From: an uncultured Oscillospiraceae bacterium
GTDB taxonomy: Bacteria > Bacillota > Clostridia > Oscillospirales > Oscillospiraceae
DNA: 64,000 nucleotides
Assembly (NCBI GenBank): GCA_947626315.1
Contig: CANQRQ010000001.1
Coordinates: forward strand, 1-64,000
Reading direction: 5' to 3'
A program made the translations under genes and the position numbers. This document shows, piece after piece, positions 815 through 10,907 of this stretch. Within the stretch, counting starts at the first letter, position 1; every line of letters begins with the position of its first letter. The notes under the pieces are model-generated. The model was not told the origin of the DNA. It searched no databases and worked only from the letters and a program-made list of their open reading frames with translations.

Positions 815-2047
815 TCAGCCTGCAACGTAGTCCAGCAGATCCACCGGCGCAAAGCCCTCGGCGTAGGTAAACGGATGGCTGTCGTAATAGGCCTGGAGCT
901 GGGCGGCGTACTCCTCGTTGGAGGCCATGCTCCGGGCGGTCATAGGCGTCTGCCCGTCGCTGGCGTACTGGATCACCGCGTCCGCGCTCAGCGGCAGGCG
1001 CATGATGACGTGGTAGCCGTAGCTGCTCTCCACCGGGTCGGACACCTGATAGTCCCCCAGGGCGTTGACCATGTCCTCAAACTCCGCTACCATGGTGCCG
1101 GGGGTGAAGGTGTAGCCGTCGGGATAAGCCGTCTTGCCCGTGTCCTCGCAGAATTCTTCCTTCAGCTCCTTGAACCGGGCCAGCAGCTCCTCCGGGTCCT
1201 GAATGGCCTGGAGCTCCTCGGCGATGGCCTGGGCCTGATCCCGCTTCTGGGCCTTCGCCTCCTCGTCCAGGGCCTCGCCGGTCTCCGGGTCAACGCTCAT
1301 GAGCAGGATGTGCCCCGCGGAGAGATAGCCCCCGTTCTCCAGCCAGTCCATGGCCAGGTCCTCGTCATAGAGCTCGCCGGTCTCGCCGTAGAGCTGGATA
1401 TAGCCCTGCCGGTAGAGCAGGTTGGTCTCGTTGATCCAGCGGTAGAGCTCCGGGGTCATGTAGCGCTCCGCCAGGTAGGCGGCAAAATCTTCTTCTGTGG
1501 CGCCCTCGCCGCAGAGGGTCATCATATCCGACTGGATATCCTCCTCCATCTGGGAGCGGACCTCCTCCGGCAGGCTGACCTGGTTGGCCTGGGCAAAGTC
1601 CCGGATGGCACAGAGCATGGTCAGGGTCTCCTCCGTGGAGCGCAGGGTCATCTCCGCGTAGCTGACGCCCTCGGCATATTCGTCCGCCCAGGACAGCTCC
1701 GTGCCGTAATAGGAGGACATGCTCTCAAAAAAGTCCGCCACGTTCTCCGCCTGGGAGTAGAGCATATAAAAATACAGAGCCCAGCTGGCCTGGGTGCCGC
1801 CCAGGGTGAGGACGGTCTCCTCCGGGGCGTGGAGGGCATAGATGGCACCGTAGTCCAGCCCGGACGGGGCGGCCGCCTCCTCCGGCTCGGCGGGGATCTC
1901 CAGTGCCACGGACGGCGCCGGGGTATCCTCCGGGGTCTCCTCAAGCACGGCGGGGATTTCCTGAGCGGACGGGGCGCGGCTCACAGCGCCCGCCAGGGCC
2001 GCGAAGACCAGGCACAGCGCCAGCATAAGGGCAAGAAGTTTTTTCAT
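815..2047 (-). CDS. Secreted parvulin-type peptidyl-prolyl isomerase (SurA/PrsA-like)
   Basis: This is predicted to help fold exported proteins outside the membrane. I chose the ATG at 2047 because it begins a clean signal peptide (MKKLLALMLALCLVFAALAG) and has AAAGGAAC about 8 bases upstream; an in-frame ATG at 2089 would bury the signal. The 410-residue product has an acidic Pro/Ala/Glu-rich linker after the signal and a helical SurA-N-like middle region. The parvulin domain lies near the C-terminus, beginning at LSAGHILL and ending at YGYHVIMRL. The signal peptide lacks a lipobox cysteine, unlike PrsA, so the protein is either released or held by the uncleaved signal. It lies 79 bp downstream of mfd and has its own terminator. 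Confidence 0.8.
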   Translation of the reverse strand: MKKLLALMLALCLVFAALAGAVSRAPSAQEIPAVLEETPEDTPAPSVALEIPAEPEEAAAPSGLDYGAIYALHAPEETVLTLGGTQASWALYFYMLYSQAENVADFFESMSSYYGTELSWADEYAEGVSYAEMTLRSTEETLTMLCAIRDFAQANQVSLPEEVRSQMEEDIQSDMMTLCGEGATEEDFAAYLAERYMTPELYRWINETNLLYRQGYIQLYGETGELYDEDLAMDWLENGGYLSAGHILLMSVDPETGEALDEEAKAQKRDQAQAIAEELQAIQDPEELLARFKELKEEFCEDTGKTAYPDGYTFTPGTMVAEFEDMVNALGDYQVSDPVESSYGYHVIMRLPLSADAVIQYASDGQTPMTARSMASNEEYAAQLQAYYDSHPFTYAEGFAPVDLLDYVAG

Positions 2048-2126
2048 CGGTTCGGGTTCCTTTCCGTATTTGTTCCGTACTGTCTGCAATATACCATAAA
2101 CGCCGCGTTTTCACAAGAGAAAAGCG

Positions 2127-5100
2127 CTATTTGGCCGCCGGTTCCCCGGCAAAGGACGCCCAGTCGGCGGTGAAGCGGCGGGCCTCGTCAATGACCCGGG
2201 TTTTGCTTTTGATCTTCAGGCTCAGGCAGGGCCGGGAGCCCGCTTCCACATGCAGCCGGCCCTTGTATGCCGGCATCGCGTACAGGGCGGAGACCTTTTC
2301 CATGTCGAAATCCTTCAGGGTGAAGCGCAGACACCCCTGCTTCTGGGAGATGTCCGTGATGCCGGCCCGGCCCGCCTCCCCCCGAAGCAGCGCCACTTGG
2401 ATCAGGGCGTTGACCCCGGAGGGCGGGTCCCCAAAGCGGTCGATCAGCTCGTCGGTCAGGTCATCCGCCTCCGCCTCGTTGCGGATCAGGGCAATGCGCC
2501 GGTAGAGGTCCATCCGCTGCTCCTGGGAGGGGATGTAGCGATCGGGGATGTTGGCCGCCACGGCCAGATCCGCCGAGCAGTCCGCCCGCTGGGGCGGCTG
2601 GATGCCCCGGGCCTCCAGCACCGCCTCGCTGAGCAGCTTCATGTACATGTCATAGCCCACGTCGATCATGTGGCCGGACTGCTCCGCCCCCAGCAGATTG
2701 CCCGCGCCCCGGATCTCCAGATCCCGCATGGCGATCTTGAAGCCGGAGCCGAACTGGGCAAAGTCCCGGATGGCGTTGAGCCGCTTTTCCGCCACCTCGG
2801 TGAGTACCTTGTCCCGCCGGAAGGTCAGGTAGGCGGAGGCCCGCCGGGTGGACCGGCCCACCCGGCCCCGGATCTGGTGCAGCTGGGCCAGGCCCAGCCG
2901 GTCCGCGTCCTCGATGATCAGGGTGTTTACATTGGGGATGTCGATGCCGGTCTCGATGATGGTGGTGCAGACCAGCACCTGCACCTGCCCGTTGACCACG
3001 TTCTCCATCACGGAGGCCAGGGCCGCCTTGTCCATCTGCCCGTGGGCCACCGCGATGCTCACCCCCTCCAGCAGCTCCGAGAGCCGCCGGGCGGTGCGCT
3101 CGATATCCTCGATCCGGTTGTGCAGGTAGTACACCTGCCCGCCCCGCTGGAGCTCCCGGCGGATGGCGTCGGCCAGGATCCCCCAGTCGTGCTCCATCAC
3201 GAAGGTCTGCACCGGCAGCCGGTCCTCCGGCGGCTCCTCGATGGTGGACATGTCCCGGATGCCGGACATGGCCATGTTCAGGGTCCTGGGGATGGGCGTG
3301 GCGGACAGGGTCAGCACGTCCACCCCCCGGGACAGCTCTTTAATATGCTCCTTATGGGTGACGCCGAAGCGCTGCTCCTCGTCCACCACCAGCAGGCCCA
3401 GGTCTTTGAATTTCACGTCCTTGGACAGGAGCCGGTGGGTGCCGATCACCAGGTCGCAAGCCCCGGAGGCCAGGTCCCGAAGGGTCTCGGCGGCCTGCCC
3501 GCCGGTTTTGAAGCGGCTGAGCACCGCGATATTCACCGGAAAGCCGAAGAAGCGCTGCAGCGCCGTCTGGTAGTGCTGCTGGGCCAGGACGGTGGTGGGC
3601 ACCAGAATAGCAGCCTGCTTCCCGTCCAGGACGCACTTCATCACCGCCCGCAGGGCCACCTCCGTCTTGCCGAAGCCCACGTCCCCGCAGAGCAGCCGGT
3701 CCATGGGCACGGCCGACTCCATGTCCCGCTTGATCTCGGCGGTGCAGCGGAGCTGGTCGTCCGTCTCCGTGTAGCCGAAGTTGTCCTCAAATTCCCGCTG
3801 CCACTCGCTGTCCGGCGAGAAGGCGTAGCCGGGCAGCCTCTGCCGCTCCGCGTAGAGGCTGATCAGCTTTTTGGCCATGTCCTTGGCGGCGCTTTTGGCC
3901 CGGGAGCGGGTCTTGGCCCACTCGGTGCCCCCCATTTTGGAGAGCTTCACCGGCTTATCCTCTCCGCCGCCGGTGTATTTGCTCACCAGGTCCAGCTGGG
4001 TGGCGGGGACATAGAGGCTGTCCGTCCCGGCGTAGTTGATTTTTACATAGTCCTTTTCAAAGCCGTCTACCTGCATCTTTACGATGCCGGCAAAGCGGCC
4101 GATGCCGTGGGCCTCGTGCACCACGTAGTCCCCCACGGACAGATCCGCGTAGGACTCGATCCGCTCCCGCCCGGCGGGCAGCGCCCCGCGCCGGGCGCTC
4201 TTCCGGGTCTTGACCCGGAGCAGCTGGGCGTCGGTGAGGATGGCCAGGCGCAGCCCCGGGTACTCGATCCCCGCGGAAAAGGCCCCCAGGCCGATGACGC
4301 AGGCCCCCTTCTCCGGCAGGCGGTGCAGAGGCTCCTGGAGAGGGGCGCTGATGCCCTGATTCTCAAAAAAGTCCCGAAGCACCTGGGCCCGCCTCTGGTC
4401 CGCCGCCAGGATCACCACCCGGTAATCCTGCTTGAGATAGAGCCGCAGATCCTCCGCCGCGGCCTGGGCGCTGCCCGCGTAGGAGGGCAGCTGCTTGGCC
4501 GGAACGCTGACCAGGGTCCGGGGGGCCACCGGCCCCCGGCCCACGATGAAGGCGTCCGCCATGTACAGGGGAAAATCCTCCAGACGCCGGAACAGAGCCT
4601 CCGGGCTCAACAGGAAGCTGTCCGGGCTCATGGCCATCCGGCCCCGCTTCTGGAGCTCCCGCAGATCCTCCCACAGCTGCTTGGCAAAATCCCGGGCCCG
4701 CTCCGCGCAGCGGGCGGGCTGGTCCAGCAGCACCAGGGCCTCCGGCGGGATGTAGTCCGCCCCCGAGGCCATGGGGTATAAAAGCGGCAGATACCGGTCT
4801 GCGTCGGACAAAAGCGCGCCGTTTCGCAGCCGCTCCGTGTCCGCGCGGAGGCCCGCCGCCGTGGCGGCGGCGTTTTCGCTGCTCCGCCGCCGGGCGTAGC
4901 GGTCCGCGTAACGGTCAAGCTCTTTGCACAGGGCCTCCGTCCCCCCCGCGGTCAGGGAGGGCAGCGCCTCCGCCGCCGGCAGAAGCACGCAGCTGTCGAT
5001 CGGGTCCCCCCGCCGCTGGGAGGAGATGTCGAAGCGGCCCATGGAGTCGATCTCGTCCCCCCAGAACTCCATGCGCACCGGCTCCGGGTCCGACGGGGAG

Positions 5101-6954: not shown

Positions 6955-7878
6955 TCACTTATCCTCCGCCTTGAGCTGCAGGACGTCCGGCCGGGAATAG
7001 TGTCCGCAGACGTCAAATTCCATCCGGCTGGCCGGAACCTTCTGCATGTCCAGGTCCGCGTAGAGAACGGCCTCCCGGTCCCAGACCGTCTCGGTGACGG
7101 CGTGTCCGTAGGGGTCGATGACGCAGCTGCCGCCCCGGCAGACGATCTCCGGCAGCGCGGCCAGCCGCTCCGGTTCATGAAGCCCCTCCGGATAGCCGAC
7201 CTTGGTGATCAGCATGTCGCAGTTGACCACATAGCAGTGCCCTTCGATGGCGATGTGCCGGACCGTGTCCTGCCACTCCGGGTTGTCGTTGGTGTTGGGC
7301 GCCAGATACAGCGTGATCCCCTTCTGATACAGGGCCGCCCGGGCCAGGGGCATGTAGCTCTCCCAGCAGATCATAGCGCCCATGGGGCCCCAGGGCGTGT
7401 CCGCCACCGGGAAAAAGCCCCTGTCCGCGTCTCCCCAGACCAGACGCTCCGCCCCGGTGGGCTTGAGCTTCCGGTGGGCGCAGAGCAGCTCCCCTTCCGG
7501 GGAGAAGATCAGGTTGCTGTTGTACAGTGTGGCGGTCTCCGCCGCCCGCTCCGATACGCCGATGCTGAGCCAGACCCCGGCCTCCCGGGCGGCCGCTGCC
7601 AGAGCCCGGGTCTCCTCTCCGGGGACCAGGATGGAGTTGTCATAGAAGCGCTTCCAGTCCAGCCGGCCCGGCTCCCCCCGGGCGCCCATCGTGTAGCCGA
7701 AGGTCAGGCCGTAGGGATAGCCGGGGAGAAAGAGCTCCGGGAAAACCACCAGCTCCGCGCCCGCCGCCCCAGTCTCCCGGATCAGGCCCAGGGCCTTCTC
7801 CAGACAGGCGGCCTTGTCAAACAGCACAGGCTCCGCCTGCACCACGGCGATCCGGCAGCTCGTTTTCAAATCCTTCAT
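6955..7878 (-). CDS. Nitrilase (carbon-nitrogen hydrolase superfamily)
   Basis: Predicted to hydrolyse an organic nitrile to the acid and ammonia in the cytoplasm. The Glu-Lys-Cys triad is visible as E48 (VVFPELFLPGY), K137 (HRKLKPTGAE) and C171 (MICWESYMPLAR). The sequences HRKLxPTGxERLVWG and CWESYMPLAR are typical of true nitrilases and cyanide hydratases rather than amidases of the same superfamily. The ATG at 7878 follows AAGGAGGG and gives 307 residues, close to the family length. Its stop is 22 bp before the heptad-repeat gene. The natural substrate cannot be read from the sequence. Confidence 0.85.
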   Translation of the reverse strand: MKDLKTSCRIAVVQAEPVLFDKAACLEKALGLIRETGAAGAELVVFPELFLPGYPYGLTFGYTMGARGEPGRLDWKRFYDNSILVPGEETRALAAAAREAGVWLSIGVSERAAETATLYNSNLIFSPEGELLCAHRKLKPTGAERLVWGDADRGFFPVADTPWGPMGAMICWESYMPLARAALYQKGITLYLAPNTNDNPEWQDTVRHIAIEGHCYVVNCDMLITKVGYPEGLHEPERLAALPEIVCRGGSCVIDPYGHAVTETVWDREAVLYADLDMQKVPASRMEFDVCGHYSRPDVLQLKAEDK

Positions 7879-7906
7879 ACGCAGCCCTCCTTCGCTTGTC
7901 CTGTCA

Positions 7907-7935
7907 ATTATATCCCCCTTTGGAAAAAGTGTAAA
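7907..7935 (-). promoter_or_regulatory. Nitrilase promoter, TTTACA-17-TATAAT
   Basis: On the minus strand TTTACA (7935-7930) and TATAAT (7912-7907) are spaced by 17 bp, about 30 bp upstream of the nitrilase ATG. The remaining 108 bp up to the divergent metNIQ promoter show nothing I can name. Confidence 0.65.
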
Positions 7936-8043
7936 GAAACAAAGGGGTAACAAAAAGCCCGGCAAACTGCCGAAAAGAAATCCCCATCTACCAAGTAGGT
8001 TTAAGCAGAATCCATAAAACGGGGCGGAGCTTGGAAAAAACGG

Positions 8044-8072
8044 TTGACAAAGGGCGGAGATGGCCGTATAAT
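8044..8072 (+). promoter_or_regulatory. metNIQ leader promoter, TTGACA-17-TATAAT
   Basis: Perfect consensus hexamers TTGACA (8044-8049) and TATAAT (8067-8072) with a 17-bp spacer. Transcription should begin near 8079, which puts the ribosome site of the leader peptide almost at the 5' end of the RNA. A constitutive promoter of this strength fits control by attenuation downstream. Confidence 0.85.
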
Positions 8073-8102
8073 GCGGCTGAATCCAAAAAGGAGCGTACCG
8101 AA

Positions 8103-8210
8103 ATGCGTTTTGTCACCGGCAACAGCATGATGGCTGAGATGTGCATGTTCTGCATGTGCCCGATGATGCGCGCGCAAAAATCCGGTTCGCTCTGTTTCAC
8201 AGCCGTCTGA
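8103..8210 (+). CDS. Met/Cys-rich leader peptide of metNIQ
   Basis: A 35-codon frame starts with ATG at 8103, preceded by AAAAAGGAG with a 9-base gap. Its core MMAEMCMFCMCPMM (residues 9-22) has seven Met in fourteen residues; the whole peptide has eight Met and four Cys. It lies between a perfect promoter and an intrinsic terminator, directly upstream of the methionine importer. This is the arrangement of an amino-acid attenuator leader, in which ribosome stalling at Met (or Cys) codons would report shortage of charged tRNA. No SAM riboswitch or T-box is evident in the roughly 230-base leader. The role is inference, but promoter, ribosome site, composition, terminator and context all agree. 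Confidence 0.8.
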   Translation: MRFVTGNSMMAEMCMFCMCPMMRAQKSGSLCFTAV

Positions 8211-8235
8211 AGTCCGTTCTTTTGAACCTATGAGG

Positions 8236-8268
8236 CCGGGAAGCGTGCGAGCTTCCCGGTTTTTCTTT
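8236..8268 (+). terminator. Attenuator terminator between leader peptide and metN
   Basis: Bases 8236-8244 and 8251-8259 form a perfect 9-bp GC-rich stem with a 6-base loop, followed by TTTTTCTTT (8260-8268). A competing fold is possible: TCC (8181-8183) and GGTTC (8184-8188), at the end of the leader frame, can pair with GGA (8239-8241) and GAACC (8224-8228) and so occupy part of the terminator's 5' arm. A ribosome stalled in the Met-rich core would leave 8181-8188 free; one reaching the stop at 8210 would cover it. Confidence 0.8.
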
Positions 8269-8314
8269 GCGCTGATTTCTTTTAATTTTTGAAGTTGGGG
8301 GAACAGAGGATTTT

Positions 8315-9313
8315 ATGATCGAGATCAAAGAGCTTTGCAAGACCTTCCGCATGCCGGACGGCCGGCAGATCACCGCCCTGAGCGACATCAACCTGAGCAT
8401 TCAGGACGGAGAGATCTTCGGCATCATCGGCCTGTCCGGGGCGGGCAAGAGCACGCTGGTGCGATGTATCAATCTGCTGGAGCGGCCCAGCTCCGGCCAG
8501 GTGATCGTGGACGGCCGGGAGCTGACGGCGCTGAAGCCCAAGGAGCTGCGGCAGGCCCGCCGGTCCATGAGCATGATCTTTCAGGACTTCAACCTGCTGA
8601 TGCAGCGGACCGCGCTGGAGAACGTCTGCTTCCCCCTGGAGCTGAACGGCCTGCGGGGCGAGGCGGCCTGGCGGAAGAAGCGGGCCATGGAGCTGTTGGA
8701 GCTGGTGGGCCTGGCCGATAGGGCAAACTCCTATCCCTCTCAGCTCTCCGGCGGCCAAAAGCAGCGGGTGGCCATCGCCCGGGCCCTGGCCACAGAGCCG
8801 AAATACCTCCTCTGCGACGAGGCCACCAGCGCCCTGGACCCCAACACCACCCGCTCCATATTGGACCTGCTGCGGAGGATTAACGAGACCATGGGGGTCA
8901 CCATCGTGGTGATTACCCACGAGATGAAGGTGATCGACCAGATCTGCCACCGGGTGGCGGTGATCGACCAGAGCCGCATCGCGGAGCTGGGCCGGGTCAG
9001 CGAGGTGTTCACCAATCCCCGGTCCGATATCGCCCGGGAGCTGATCATCCCCCGGGACCGGGCGGTGCTGGACACCGCCGGCGGCCGCCGGATCCGCATC
9101 ACTTTCGACGGCAGCGACGCCAAGGCCCCGGTCATCTCCGAGATGGTCCTGGAGTGCCAGGCCCCGGTCAACATCCTCTTCGCGGACACCCGGGAGTTTG
9201 AGGGCGTCACCCACGGGCACATGATCGTGGAGCTGCCCAGCGACCCGCGGCAGGCGGAGAAACTCCTTGTCTGGCTGAAAAACAGCCAGGTGAAGTGGCA
9301 GGAGGAGGCGTGA
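8315..9313 (+). CDS. metN: Methionine ABC transporter ATP-binding protein
   Basis: The ATPase powers uptake of methionine through MetI. It has Walker A GLSGAGKST (from residue 39), Q-loop FQDFNLL, signature LSGGQKQR (about residue 144) and Walker B YLLCDEATSALDP. A C-terminal NIL domain (about 255-330) is the regulatory methionine-sensing domain of MetN proteins. At 332 residues the length is typical. The ATG lies 47 bases after the attenuator T-run with a GGGGGAACAGAGG ribosome region. It is followed after 2 bp by metI. Confidence 0.96.
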   Translation: MIEIKELCKTFRMPDGRQITALSDINLSIQDGEIFGIIGLSGAGKSTLVRCINLLERPSSGQVIVDGRELTALKPKELRQARRSMSMIFQDFNLLMQRTALENVCFPLELNGLRGEAAWRKKRAMELLELVGLADRANSYPSQLSGGQKQRVAIARALATEPKYLLCDEATSALDPNTTRSILDLLRRINETMGVTIVVITHEMKVIDQICHRVAVIDQSRIAELGRVSEVFTNPRSDIARELIIPRDRAVLDTAGGRRIRITFDGSDAKAPVISEMVLECQAPVNILFADTREFEGVTHGHMIVELPSDPRQAEKLLVWLKNSQVKWQEEA

Positions 9314-9315
9314 AC

Positions 9316-9996
9316 ATGCTGTCGGAAATGTTTTATAAGCTCTGGGCAAACCACCTGATCCAGATCGGCATCTGGGAGACCGTCTACATGACCTTCCTCT
9401 CCACCGCCATCGCCTACCTGATCGGCCTGCCCCTGGGTCTGATCCTCACCGTCACCGACGAGGGGGGCATCCGCCCCGTCCGCTGGCTCAACCGGCTGCT
9501 GGGCTTTGTGGTGAACTTTTTCCGGAGCATCCCCTTTATCATCCTCATGGTGGCCATGCTGCCGGTGGCCCGCCTGATCGTGGGCACCGCCCTGGGCAAC
9601 AAGGCCATGATCGTGATGCTGGTCATCGCCGCCGCGCCCTACGTGGCGCGGATGGTGGAATCCTCCGTCAAGGAGGTGGACGCGGGGGTGATCGAGGCCG
9701 CCAACTCCATGGGGGCCAACAACCTGCAGATCGTCCTCAAGGTGCTTTTGCCGGAGGCAAAGCCCTCTCTGATCCTGGGCGCGGTGATCTCCACCGTGAC
9801 CATCCTCAGCTACTCCGCCATGGCCAGCACCATCGGCGGGACGGGTCTGGGGCAGATCGCCATCATTTACGGCCATCAGCGCAGCAATGACGACATCACC
9901 TGGATCTGTGTGATTTTGACTGTAATTATCGTTCAGATAATTCAGGAGGTGGGCAATACCATCGCCCGCCGGACCGATAAAAGAAGCAGAAATTAA
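9316..9996 (+). CDS. metI: Methionine ABC transporter permease
   Basis: A five-helix MetI-type membrane channel of 226 residues. I chose the ATG at 9316, two bases after the metN stop, because GGAGGAGG lies about 7 bases upstream; an in-frame codon at 9295 would overlap metN without a better ribosome site. The EAA-type loop AANSMGANNLQIVLKVLLPEA contacts the ATPase. The position between metN and metQ settles the assignment. Confidence 0.95.
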   Translation: MLSEMFYKLWANHLIQIGIWETVYMTFLSTAIAYLIGLPLGLILTVTDEGGIRPVRWLNRLLGFVVNFFRSIPFIILMVAMLPVARLIVGTALGNKAMIVMLVIAAAPYVARMVESSVKEVDAGVIEAANSMGANNLQIVLKVLLPEAKPSLILGAVISTVTILSYSAMASTIGGTGLGQIAIIYGHQRSNDDITWICVILTVIIVQIIQEVGNTIARRTDKRSRN

Positions 9997-10013: not shown

Positions 10014-10907
10014 ATGAAAAAGACACTCGTACTCGTTCTCGGCCTGGCCCTGATCCTGTCCCTGGCCGCCTGCGGCGGAAACGCCGCCCCTGCCGCCGAA
10101 GCCCCCGCCGCCGAGGCTCCCGCCGCGGAGACGCCTGCTGAGGAAGCCCCCGCCGCCGAAGACGCCGCCCTGGAACCTCTGGTGGTGGGCGCCAGCTCCA
10201 CCCCCCACGCCGAGATCCTGGAGCAGGTGAAGCCCGCGCTGGCCGAAGCCGGCTACGACCTGCAGATCGTGGTCTATGACGACTACATCTTGCCCAACCA
10301 GGCCCTGGCCGACGGGGACCTGGACGCCAACTACTTCCAGCACACCCCCTACCTGAACAGCTACAACGCCTCCAACGGCACCGACCTGGTGGCCGCAGCG
10401 GCGATCCACTATGAGCCCTTCGGCATCTACGGCAACGGCGTGACCGATCTGGCCCAGCTGGCCGACGGCGCCTCCATCATCATCCCCGCTGACGACAGCA
10501 ACGAGACCCGCGCCCTGTTCCTGCTCCAGCAGGAGGGCCTGATCACCCTGCCCGAGGACGCCAGTGCGGAAGCGGGCGTCACCACCCTGGACATCGTGGA
10601 CGACGGCGGTTATGACATTCAGGCCGTCCAGGCCGACACCGTGCCCGCCCAGCTGGCCAACAGCGCAGAGGGCACCATCGCCGTCATCAACGGCAACTAC
10701 GCCCTGCAGGCCGGCCTGAGCATCGCCGACGCCCTGGCCGTGGAGGACGCCTCCGGCACCGCCGCCCAGACCTACGCCAACGTGATCGCCGTGCGCAGCG
10801 GCGACGAGGGCAGCGAGAAGATCCAGGCCCTGGTCAACGCCCTGCTGGCCGACAGCACGAAGGACTACATCACCGCCACCTACAACGGAGCCGTGGTAGT
10901 TTTCTAA
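10014..10907 (+). CDS. metQ: Methionine-binding lipoprotein
   Basis: The substrate-binding part of the importer, anchored outside the membrane. The signal peptide ends in the lipobox LSLAACGG with the lipidated cysteine at residue 20. A low-complexity Ala/Pro/Glu tether (about 25-50) precedes the NlpA/MetQ domain, which starts at PLVVGASSTPHAEILEQVKPAL and includes the family-typical YFQHTPYLNSYN. It is 297 residues long, 17 bp after metI, and is followed by a very strong terminator. Related NlpA lipoproteins can prefer other amino acids, but metN, metI and the Met-rich leader favour methionine. Confidence 0.94.
   Translation: MKKTLVLVLGLALILSLAACGGNAAPAAEAPAAEAPAAETPAEEAPAAEDAALEPLVVGASSTPHAEILEQVKPALAEAGYDLQIVVYDDYILPNQALADGDLDANYFQHTPYLNSYNASNGTDLVAAAAIHYEPFGIYGNGVTDLAQLADGASIIIPADDSNETRALFLLQQEGLITLPEDASAEAGVTTLDIVDDGGYDIQAVQADTVPAQLANSAEGTIAVINGNYALQAGLSIADALAVEDASGTAAQTYANVIAVRSGDEGSEKIQALVNALLADSTKDYITATYNGAVVVF

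Follow-up and report, generated by a model that had tools for sequence, protein, structure and literature searches.

A conserved methionine-codon leader upstream of metNIQ in gut Oscillospiraceae: a probable transcription attenuator read by the ribosome

The stretch of DNA analysed here (i.e. the window) comprises 64,000 nucleotides from an uncultured Oscillospiraceae bacterium and carries, on the forward strand, a metN-like gene for an ABC ATPase with a NIL domain (8315-9313, +), a metI-like permease gene (9316-9996, +) and a metQ-like gene for a lipoprotein of the NlpA family (10014-10907, +). The best NCBIfam matches of the three genes were MetN, MetI and MetQ/NlpA lipoprotein, all of them below NCBI's curated cut-offs, and Pfam agreed with the metNIQ calls (i.e. 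ABC_tran and NIL; BPD_transp_1; Lipoprotein_9). Upstream of metN lies a sigma-A-type promoter (TTGACA-17-TATAAT; 8044-8072, +) with TTGACA at 8044-8049 and TATAAT at 8067-8072, and its description in the initial annotation as perfect was borne out by matches at 12 of 12 positions. The 35-codon frame with a ribosome site that had been read behind this promoter was likewise recovered, running from an ATG at 8103-8105 to a TGA at 8208-8210 (8103-8210, +; MRFVTGNSMMAEMCMFCMCPMMRAQKSGSLCFTAV) with GGAG at 8090-8093. Codons 9-22 of this frame (8127-8168, +) form a core of seven Met and three Cys codons, which is conserved in 59 leaders and contains the proposed sites of ribosome stalling. An intrinsic terminator with a T-run ahead of metN (8235-8269, +), also part of the earlier description, was present before the metN start at 8315: its stem (8235-8244/8251-8260) consists of nine standard pairs plus one outer G-U pair, the loop occupies 8245-8250 and the T-run 8260-8269. 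This terminator (8235-8260) was not listed by a simple pattern scanner but was clear on folding. On the opposite strand, a second near-perfect promoter (11/12; 7907-7935, -) points the other way, to frame 6955-7965 (-), and the intergenic region therefore looks divergent.

The distribution of the leader was examined with peptide searches. At E<=1, the window's 35-aa peptide had hits in 25 of 60 genomes, and 12 of these (the window's own counted) were convincing leaders by eye. A 12-row peptide profile (A2) matched 68 of the 102 genomes of the genus at E<=0.5 and 54 of them, again counting the window's own, at E<=1e-5. Weak matches combined with a reading of the region upstream of metN added eight more genomes (i.e. 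G069, G073, G090, G001, G101, G002, G015 and G083), so that by our count of profile matches and additions by reading the leader is present in 62/102 genus genomes. Across the family, A2 matched 33 of 300 genomes at E<=0.5, many of the weak matches being false by eye. A wider profile (A4) at E<=0.01 matched six genomes out of 394 from the order: that of the window, three others in its family and two in a different family. Among 398 phylum genomes it matched that of the window alone; this scarcity indicates that the leader is not a general Firmicute device. No leader match was obtained in a plasmid collection, and the leader occurs once in the window's genome.

A set of 59 leaders was then compared. 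At first selection, 73 candidates of >=15 bits were kept; eleven duplicate places (L002-L010, L012 and L014), L063 (judged by eye to be no leader) and all candidates below 15 bits, including L065, a leader by eye, had been left out beforehand. Removal of L086, L092, L099, L100 and L109, which were partial, doubtful or near-copies, and of nine further near-copies gave the final number. Similar rows persist in this set, with 36 left at 75% identity. All 59 leaders were picked by the peptide profile, the RNA helices playing no part in the choice, and the counts of internal Met codons (6-11 per leader, median 9, 26% of residues) are therefore biased upwards. The Met positions and the Ala-Gln behind them are retained, whereas the two peptide ends drift. 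A promoter with at most two mismatches of 12 precedes all 59 leaders and is perfect in 38, as compared to none in a control stretch approximately 500 bases further upstream, among such loci as reach that far. The initial annotation had suggested a survey of the regions upstream of metN in related Oscillospiraceae, and this recovered Met-rich frames followed by a terminator in 59/59 cases, with a metN- or metQ-like next gene in 58/59 (i.e. 52 metN-like, six metQ-like and one unclassed near a contig end). These observations confirm that the Met-rich leader, with its promoter and terminator before metNIQ, is real and conserved.

Several loci depart from this layout. Another family of the order has the leader ahead of a homocysteine synthase gene at two loci and, by eye, ahead of metN at one; the homocysteine synthase call (TIGR01326) exceeded its cut-off in L153 and narrowly missed it in L151, on a fragment. 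Upstream of metN in L120 is a decayed leader by eye, with a relative-like start, no Met core and a run into a terminator-like hairpin. In L206 a very short Met leader (MLKSDCNIMMGMCMRLTTH), perhaps a minimal form, lies some 100-200 bases ahead of metN together with a terminator-like hairpin. Two Met leaders, L083 and L093, lie approximately 4.4 kb apart on contig 4 of G077, each ahead of its own metN-like gene, the products of which are 41% and 70% identical, respectively, to the window's MetN. In some loci (i.e. L051, L058, L061, L151, L152, L153 and L154, of which L152 and L061 are one and the same place) an additional small frame bearing an R-M-C-[P/R] motif lies between the leader terminator and the metQ or homocysteine synthase gene. 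At least two of these frames have a good ribosome site (e.g. MKWLRERMCPRGTENF.. in L051), and the frame may be another leader. The metL peptide of Streptomyces lividans likewise ends in RRMCAF (PMC8079986).

Folding of the window's leader placed region 1, the Shine-Dalgarno arm (GGAGCGUACCG; 8090-8100, +), in a minimum-energy pairing with region 2 (8183-8193, +), which consists of codons directly after the Met core. Region 2 has an alternative partner, as its bases 8184-8190 are complementary to 8247-8253 (+), i.e. the end of the terminator loop and the first bases of the 3' arm, in a pairing that is exclusive with the terminator. In a MAFFT alignment (A3), 81.6% of 408 cells of this antiterminator were paired as compared to 30-52% when the helix was slid by one to three columns; covariation was 0.446 as compared to at most 0.185 for the slid versions, and none of 500 shuffles reached 0.446. 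Six antiterminator pairs had changed on both sides, a number not above that of the shuffles. The antiterminator covaries nearly as strongly as the terminator, for which 91.2% of 590 cells were paired with a covariation of 0.550. By alignment columns the Shine-Dalgarno helix was weak (54.4% paired, barely more than when slid), as its register differs from group to group. Both alternative helices were first spotted by eye on the same leaders that were later used for testing. In an alignment-free test, run on sets of dissimilar leaders numbering 36, 22 and 15, pairing with the own partner outscored every one of 20,000 random re-pairings for both the protector and the antiterminator helix. Five control pairings (i.e. 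region 2 with the 5' arm or with the spacer; and the spacer, the Met core or the Shine-Dalgarno arm with the 5' arm) showed no own-partner advantage in this test, and the spacer paired less with its own terminator 5' arm than with those of others. These comparisons point to a leader RNA that is a three-way switch between protector, antiterminator and terminator.

The pairing scheme differs from that originally drawn for this locus. The initial annotation had proposed that 8181-8188 pairs with 8224-8241, but the two registers of this helix were paired in 43.8% and 61.6% of cells, without clear covariation excess. Neither the spacer nor the terminator 5' arm gave region 2 an own-partner advantage, the supported partner being 8247-8253. 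Of the earlier attenuator reading, the Met-codon leader with its terminator is supported; the specific antiterminator is not, and the pairing of the Shine-Dalgarno arm with region 2 had been missed.

The spacing of these elements is compatible with control by a translating ribosome. The distance from the last Met codon to the start of region 2 is 15 nt in 34 of the 59 leaders, including the window's, and 18 nt in 12, so that 46/59 have one of these two distances. Given the usual ribosome footprint, a ribosome halted on that codon would leave region 2 accessible, and one further along would cover it. Folding was modelled by ribosome state on RNA ending 4 nt past the terminator loop. Without a ribosome, the mean antiterminator probability was 0.32 (window 0.01), and the Shine-Dalgarno stem held region 2 with a mean probability of 0.42 (window 0.82), exceeding 0.5 in 27/59 leaders; the antiterminator still exceeded 0.3 in 22/59. 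With a ribosome at the last Met codon and the upstream RNA hidden, the antiterminator rose to a mean of 0.83 (window 0.98). With the Shine-Dalgarno arm left free beside the stalled ribosome, the antiterminator reached a mean of only 0.48 (window 0.59), and the model therefore needs a queued ribosome or geometric exclusion; occupancy of the Shine-Dalgarno arm would suit it best. At equilibrium, the complete RNA favours the terminator (mean 0.82, window 0.99), and antitermination would therefore have to be kinetic.

Other regulators of methionine genes were sought at the same loci. Rfam at gathering scores gave no match in the window, nor in any of the 20 leader loci (out of 59) that were scanned, and hence neither SAM-I (RF00162) nor T-box (RF00230) at these places. 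A search of 7950-8340 at E<=5 was also without a match; the initial annotation had named a match to a known SAM riboswitch covariance model as speaking against its reading. Among 30 metN loci from genus genomes without a strong leader match, 15 had a T-box motif and four a leader; the cut-offs placed the remaining 11 in neither class, and L141 among them is a leader by eye. A collection of 62 named metN loci comprised 46 with a leader, four with a T-box, 11 with neither (one of which, L206, is the short leader by eye) and one that was too short; the counts of the two sets cannot be added, since their assemblies are partly shared. No metN locus in either set was classed by the cut-offs as having both a leader and a T-box. 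Rfam confirmed the T-box in 13 of 19 metN loci among 20 source sequences, and all 19 T-box metN loci have GAAC-AUG-G at what we take to be the specifier position.

A MetN tree was built by a quick method with SH-aLRT support only, L141 and L206 being labelled as leader loci despite scores under the cut-off. The T-box row L119, whose MetN is identical to that of L190, falls in a ten-row starred group that comprises four leader rows, two T-box rows and four with neither; this group is nested in a starred group of 35 rows, 23 of them leader. As T-box rows lie within leader-holding starred groups, the two devices were probably swapped at an orthologous gene at least once. SAM-I riboswitches were found in 92/102 genus genomes. 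The window's genome has two, one before a gene read by eye as metK, and seven T-boxes, three of them over the cut-off. The second SAM-I (L149 2847-2972, -) lies upstream of frame 1602-2420 (-), which is nitroreductase-like by eye. With SAM-I placed elsewhere in this genome (e.g. at the putative metK), metNIQ seems to be read out separately.

Taken on sequence and comparative grounds, the leader is probably a ribosome-mediated transcription attenuator through which metNIQ responds to the level of charged methionine tRNA. The initial annotation had read the Met-codon leader and terminator as an attenuator of metNIQ, and the co-occurrence of Met codons, terminator and met gene agrees with this, as does the AUG T-box found instead at related metN genes. 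Sensing of tRNA charging is supported by that T-box and by the similar leader before the homocysteine synthase gene. When Met-tRNA is ample, the ribosome would cross the Met core and cover region 2, the terminator would form and metNIQ would be off. When Met-tRNA is scarce, the ribosome would stop in the Met core and leave region 2, located 15 nt beyond the last Met codon, uncovered. The stalled or the next ribosome would occupy the Shine-Dalgarno arm, and region 2 could then capture the emerging terminator loop and 3' arm before the hairpin closes, allowing RNA polymerase to read through. If there is no translation, the Shine-Dalgarno arm would take region 2 and the terminator would form. This predicted direction, from low Met-tRNA through a stalled ribosome to read-through, fits an importer. 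Besides the equilibrium preference for the terminator and the weakness of the Shine-Dalgarno helix by columns, two further findings weigh against the attenuator: Ala-Gln after the Met core is conserved beyond the needs of tRNA sensing, and one relative, L120, lacks the Met core yet has a terminator-like hairpin.

The Cys codons of the core raise the question of whether stalling at either codon type induces metNIQ. All 59 leaders contain Cys (1-6 residues), and the Cys of the MCM motif is kept in 52/59; this is the only persistent one, however, its seven exceptions (7/59) are all Arg, one base change away, and the remaining Cys positions are often Tyr, Arg, His, Phe, Gly or Ser. Joint sensing of Met and Cys is judged unlikely. 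Conservation after the core bears on a different explanation, in which a Met-rich chain with M-C-M-x-x-x-Ala-[Gln/His] would arrest the ribosome on binding methionine or SAM within the exit tunnel; TnaC and SpeFL are examples of such nascent-peptide sensors. Ala follows the Met core in 52/59 leaders through four synonymous codons and Gln in 43/59, and more distant leaders have, by eye, an Ala-His version. The retention of Ala through synonymous codons hints that the peptide or the first two bases are under some constraint. The Ala-Gln codons adjoin the switching RNA, however, and RNA constraint may explain part of this pattern. Arrest by a ligand would moreover turn the importer on in response to methionine, which is the wrong direction for uptake, and the AUG T-box at related metN genes points instead to tRNA charging. 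A pure nascent-peptide sensor is very unlikely. A hybrid of trp-type and TnaC-type control, in which one leader joins the charging of Met-tRNA (perhaps also of Cys-tRNA) with nascent-chain arrest via M-C-M-x-x-x-Ala-[Gln/His], is quite doubtful.

Two explanations that dispense with the leader codons or with the terminator appear extremely improbable. A riboswitch for SAM or another metabolite, with a fortuitous open frame, might be expected from the frequency of SAM-I in the genus (92/102 genomes), but neither the leader (E<=5) nor the 20/59 loci scanned at gathering scores gave an Rfam match, the codons are the most conserved part and the helices change sequence along with their partners. Similarly, the conserved peptide could be a small functional protein before an incidental terminator, a reading scarcely compatible with peptide ends that vary, a terminator in 59/59 leaders and a region 2 that has two RNA partners.

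The attenuator that we favour belongs to a known principle. As in attenuators of the trp/his/leu type, a short frame rich in cognate codons is combined with alternative protector, antiterminator and terminator helices and with a cognate operon downstream. The antiterminator partner in trp/his/leu-type attenuators is the terminator 5' arm, whereas in the present leader it is the terminator loop and 3' arm; the present leader also uses the methionine codon, and its protector arm is its own Shine-Dalgarno region. The ilvB-II uORF is given as an example of such ribosome-mediated attenuation (PMC10272879). The nearest printed precedent found is the metL leader of S. lividans before metNIQ, which was annotated in 2021 and proposed to be an attenuator (PMC8079986). 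The metL leader resembles the present leader in being short, in having several Met and Cys codons and in its place before metNIQ, and differs in its length of 29 aa, its leaderless start and its phylum (PMC8079986). Its authors found no typical Rho-independent terminator, and the accessible text describes no antiterminator (PMC8079986). The metL and present peptides were set side by side by eye only.

Replacement of one sensing device by another also has a parallel in the Firmicutes. His leader peptides are described as replacing T-boxes at hisS in bacilli (PMC2965389). Like the present leader, they occupy a position at a Firmicute gene that a T-box would otherwise hold, with histidine rather than methionine as the amino acid. 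The AUG-specifier T-box (RF00230) shares with the present leader its reading of Met-tRNA (in uncharged form), its position before metN and its occurrence in the genus; unlike the leader, it binds tRNA directly without translation, and none was found at the window's leader or the 20 leader loci scanned. SAM-I (RF00162) provides methionine-related control in the window's genome but senses SAM and is absent from this leader. Control of methionine genes in Firmicutes has been described mainly via SAM riboswitches and T-boxes. A search of the open-access literature returned no report of a Met-codon leader in Firmicutes, the only methionine leader found being the one Streptomyces annotation.

As a defined RNA switch the leader is open to direct testing, and it provides a marker by which the regulation of metNIQ can be annotated in uncultured genomes from gut and rumen. 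If Met-codon attenuators form a covarying family in gut Oscillospiraceae, at genes that carry an AUG T-box in relatives, two unrelated ways of reading Met-tRNA through RNA would be seen to stand in for one another within a single genus.
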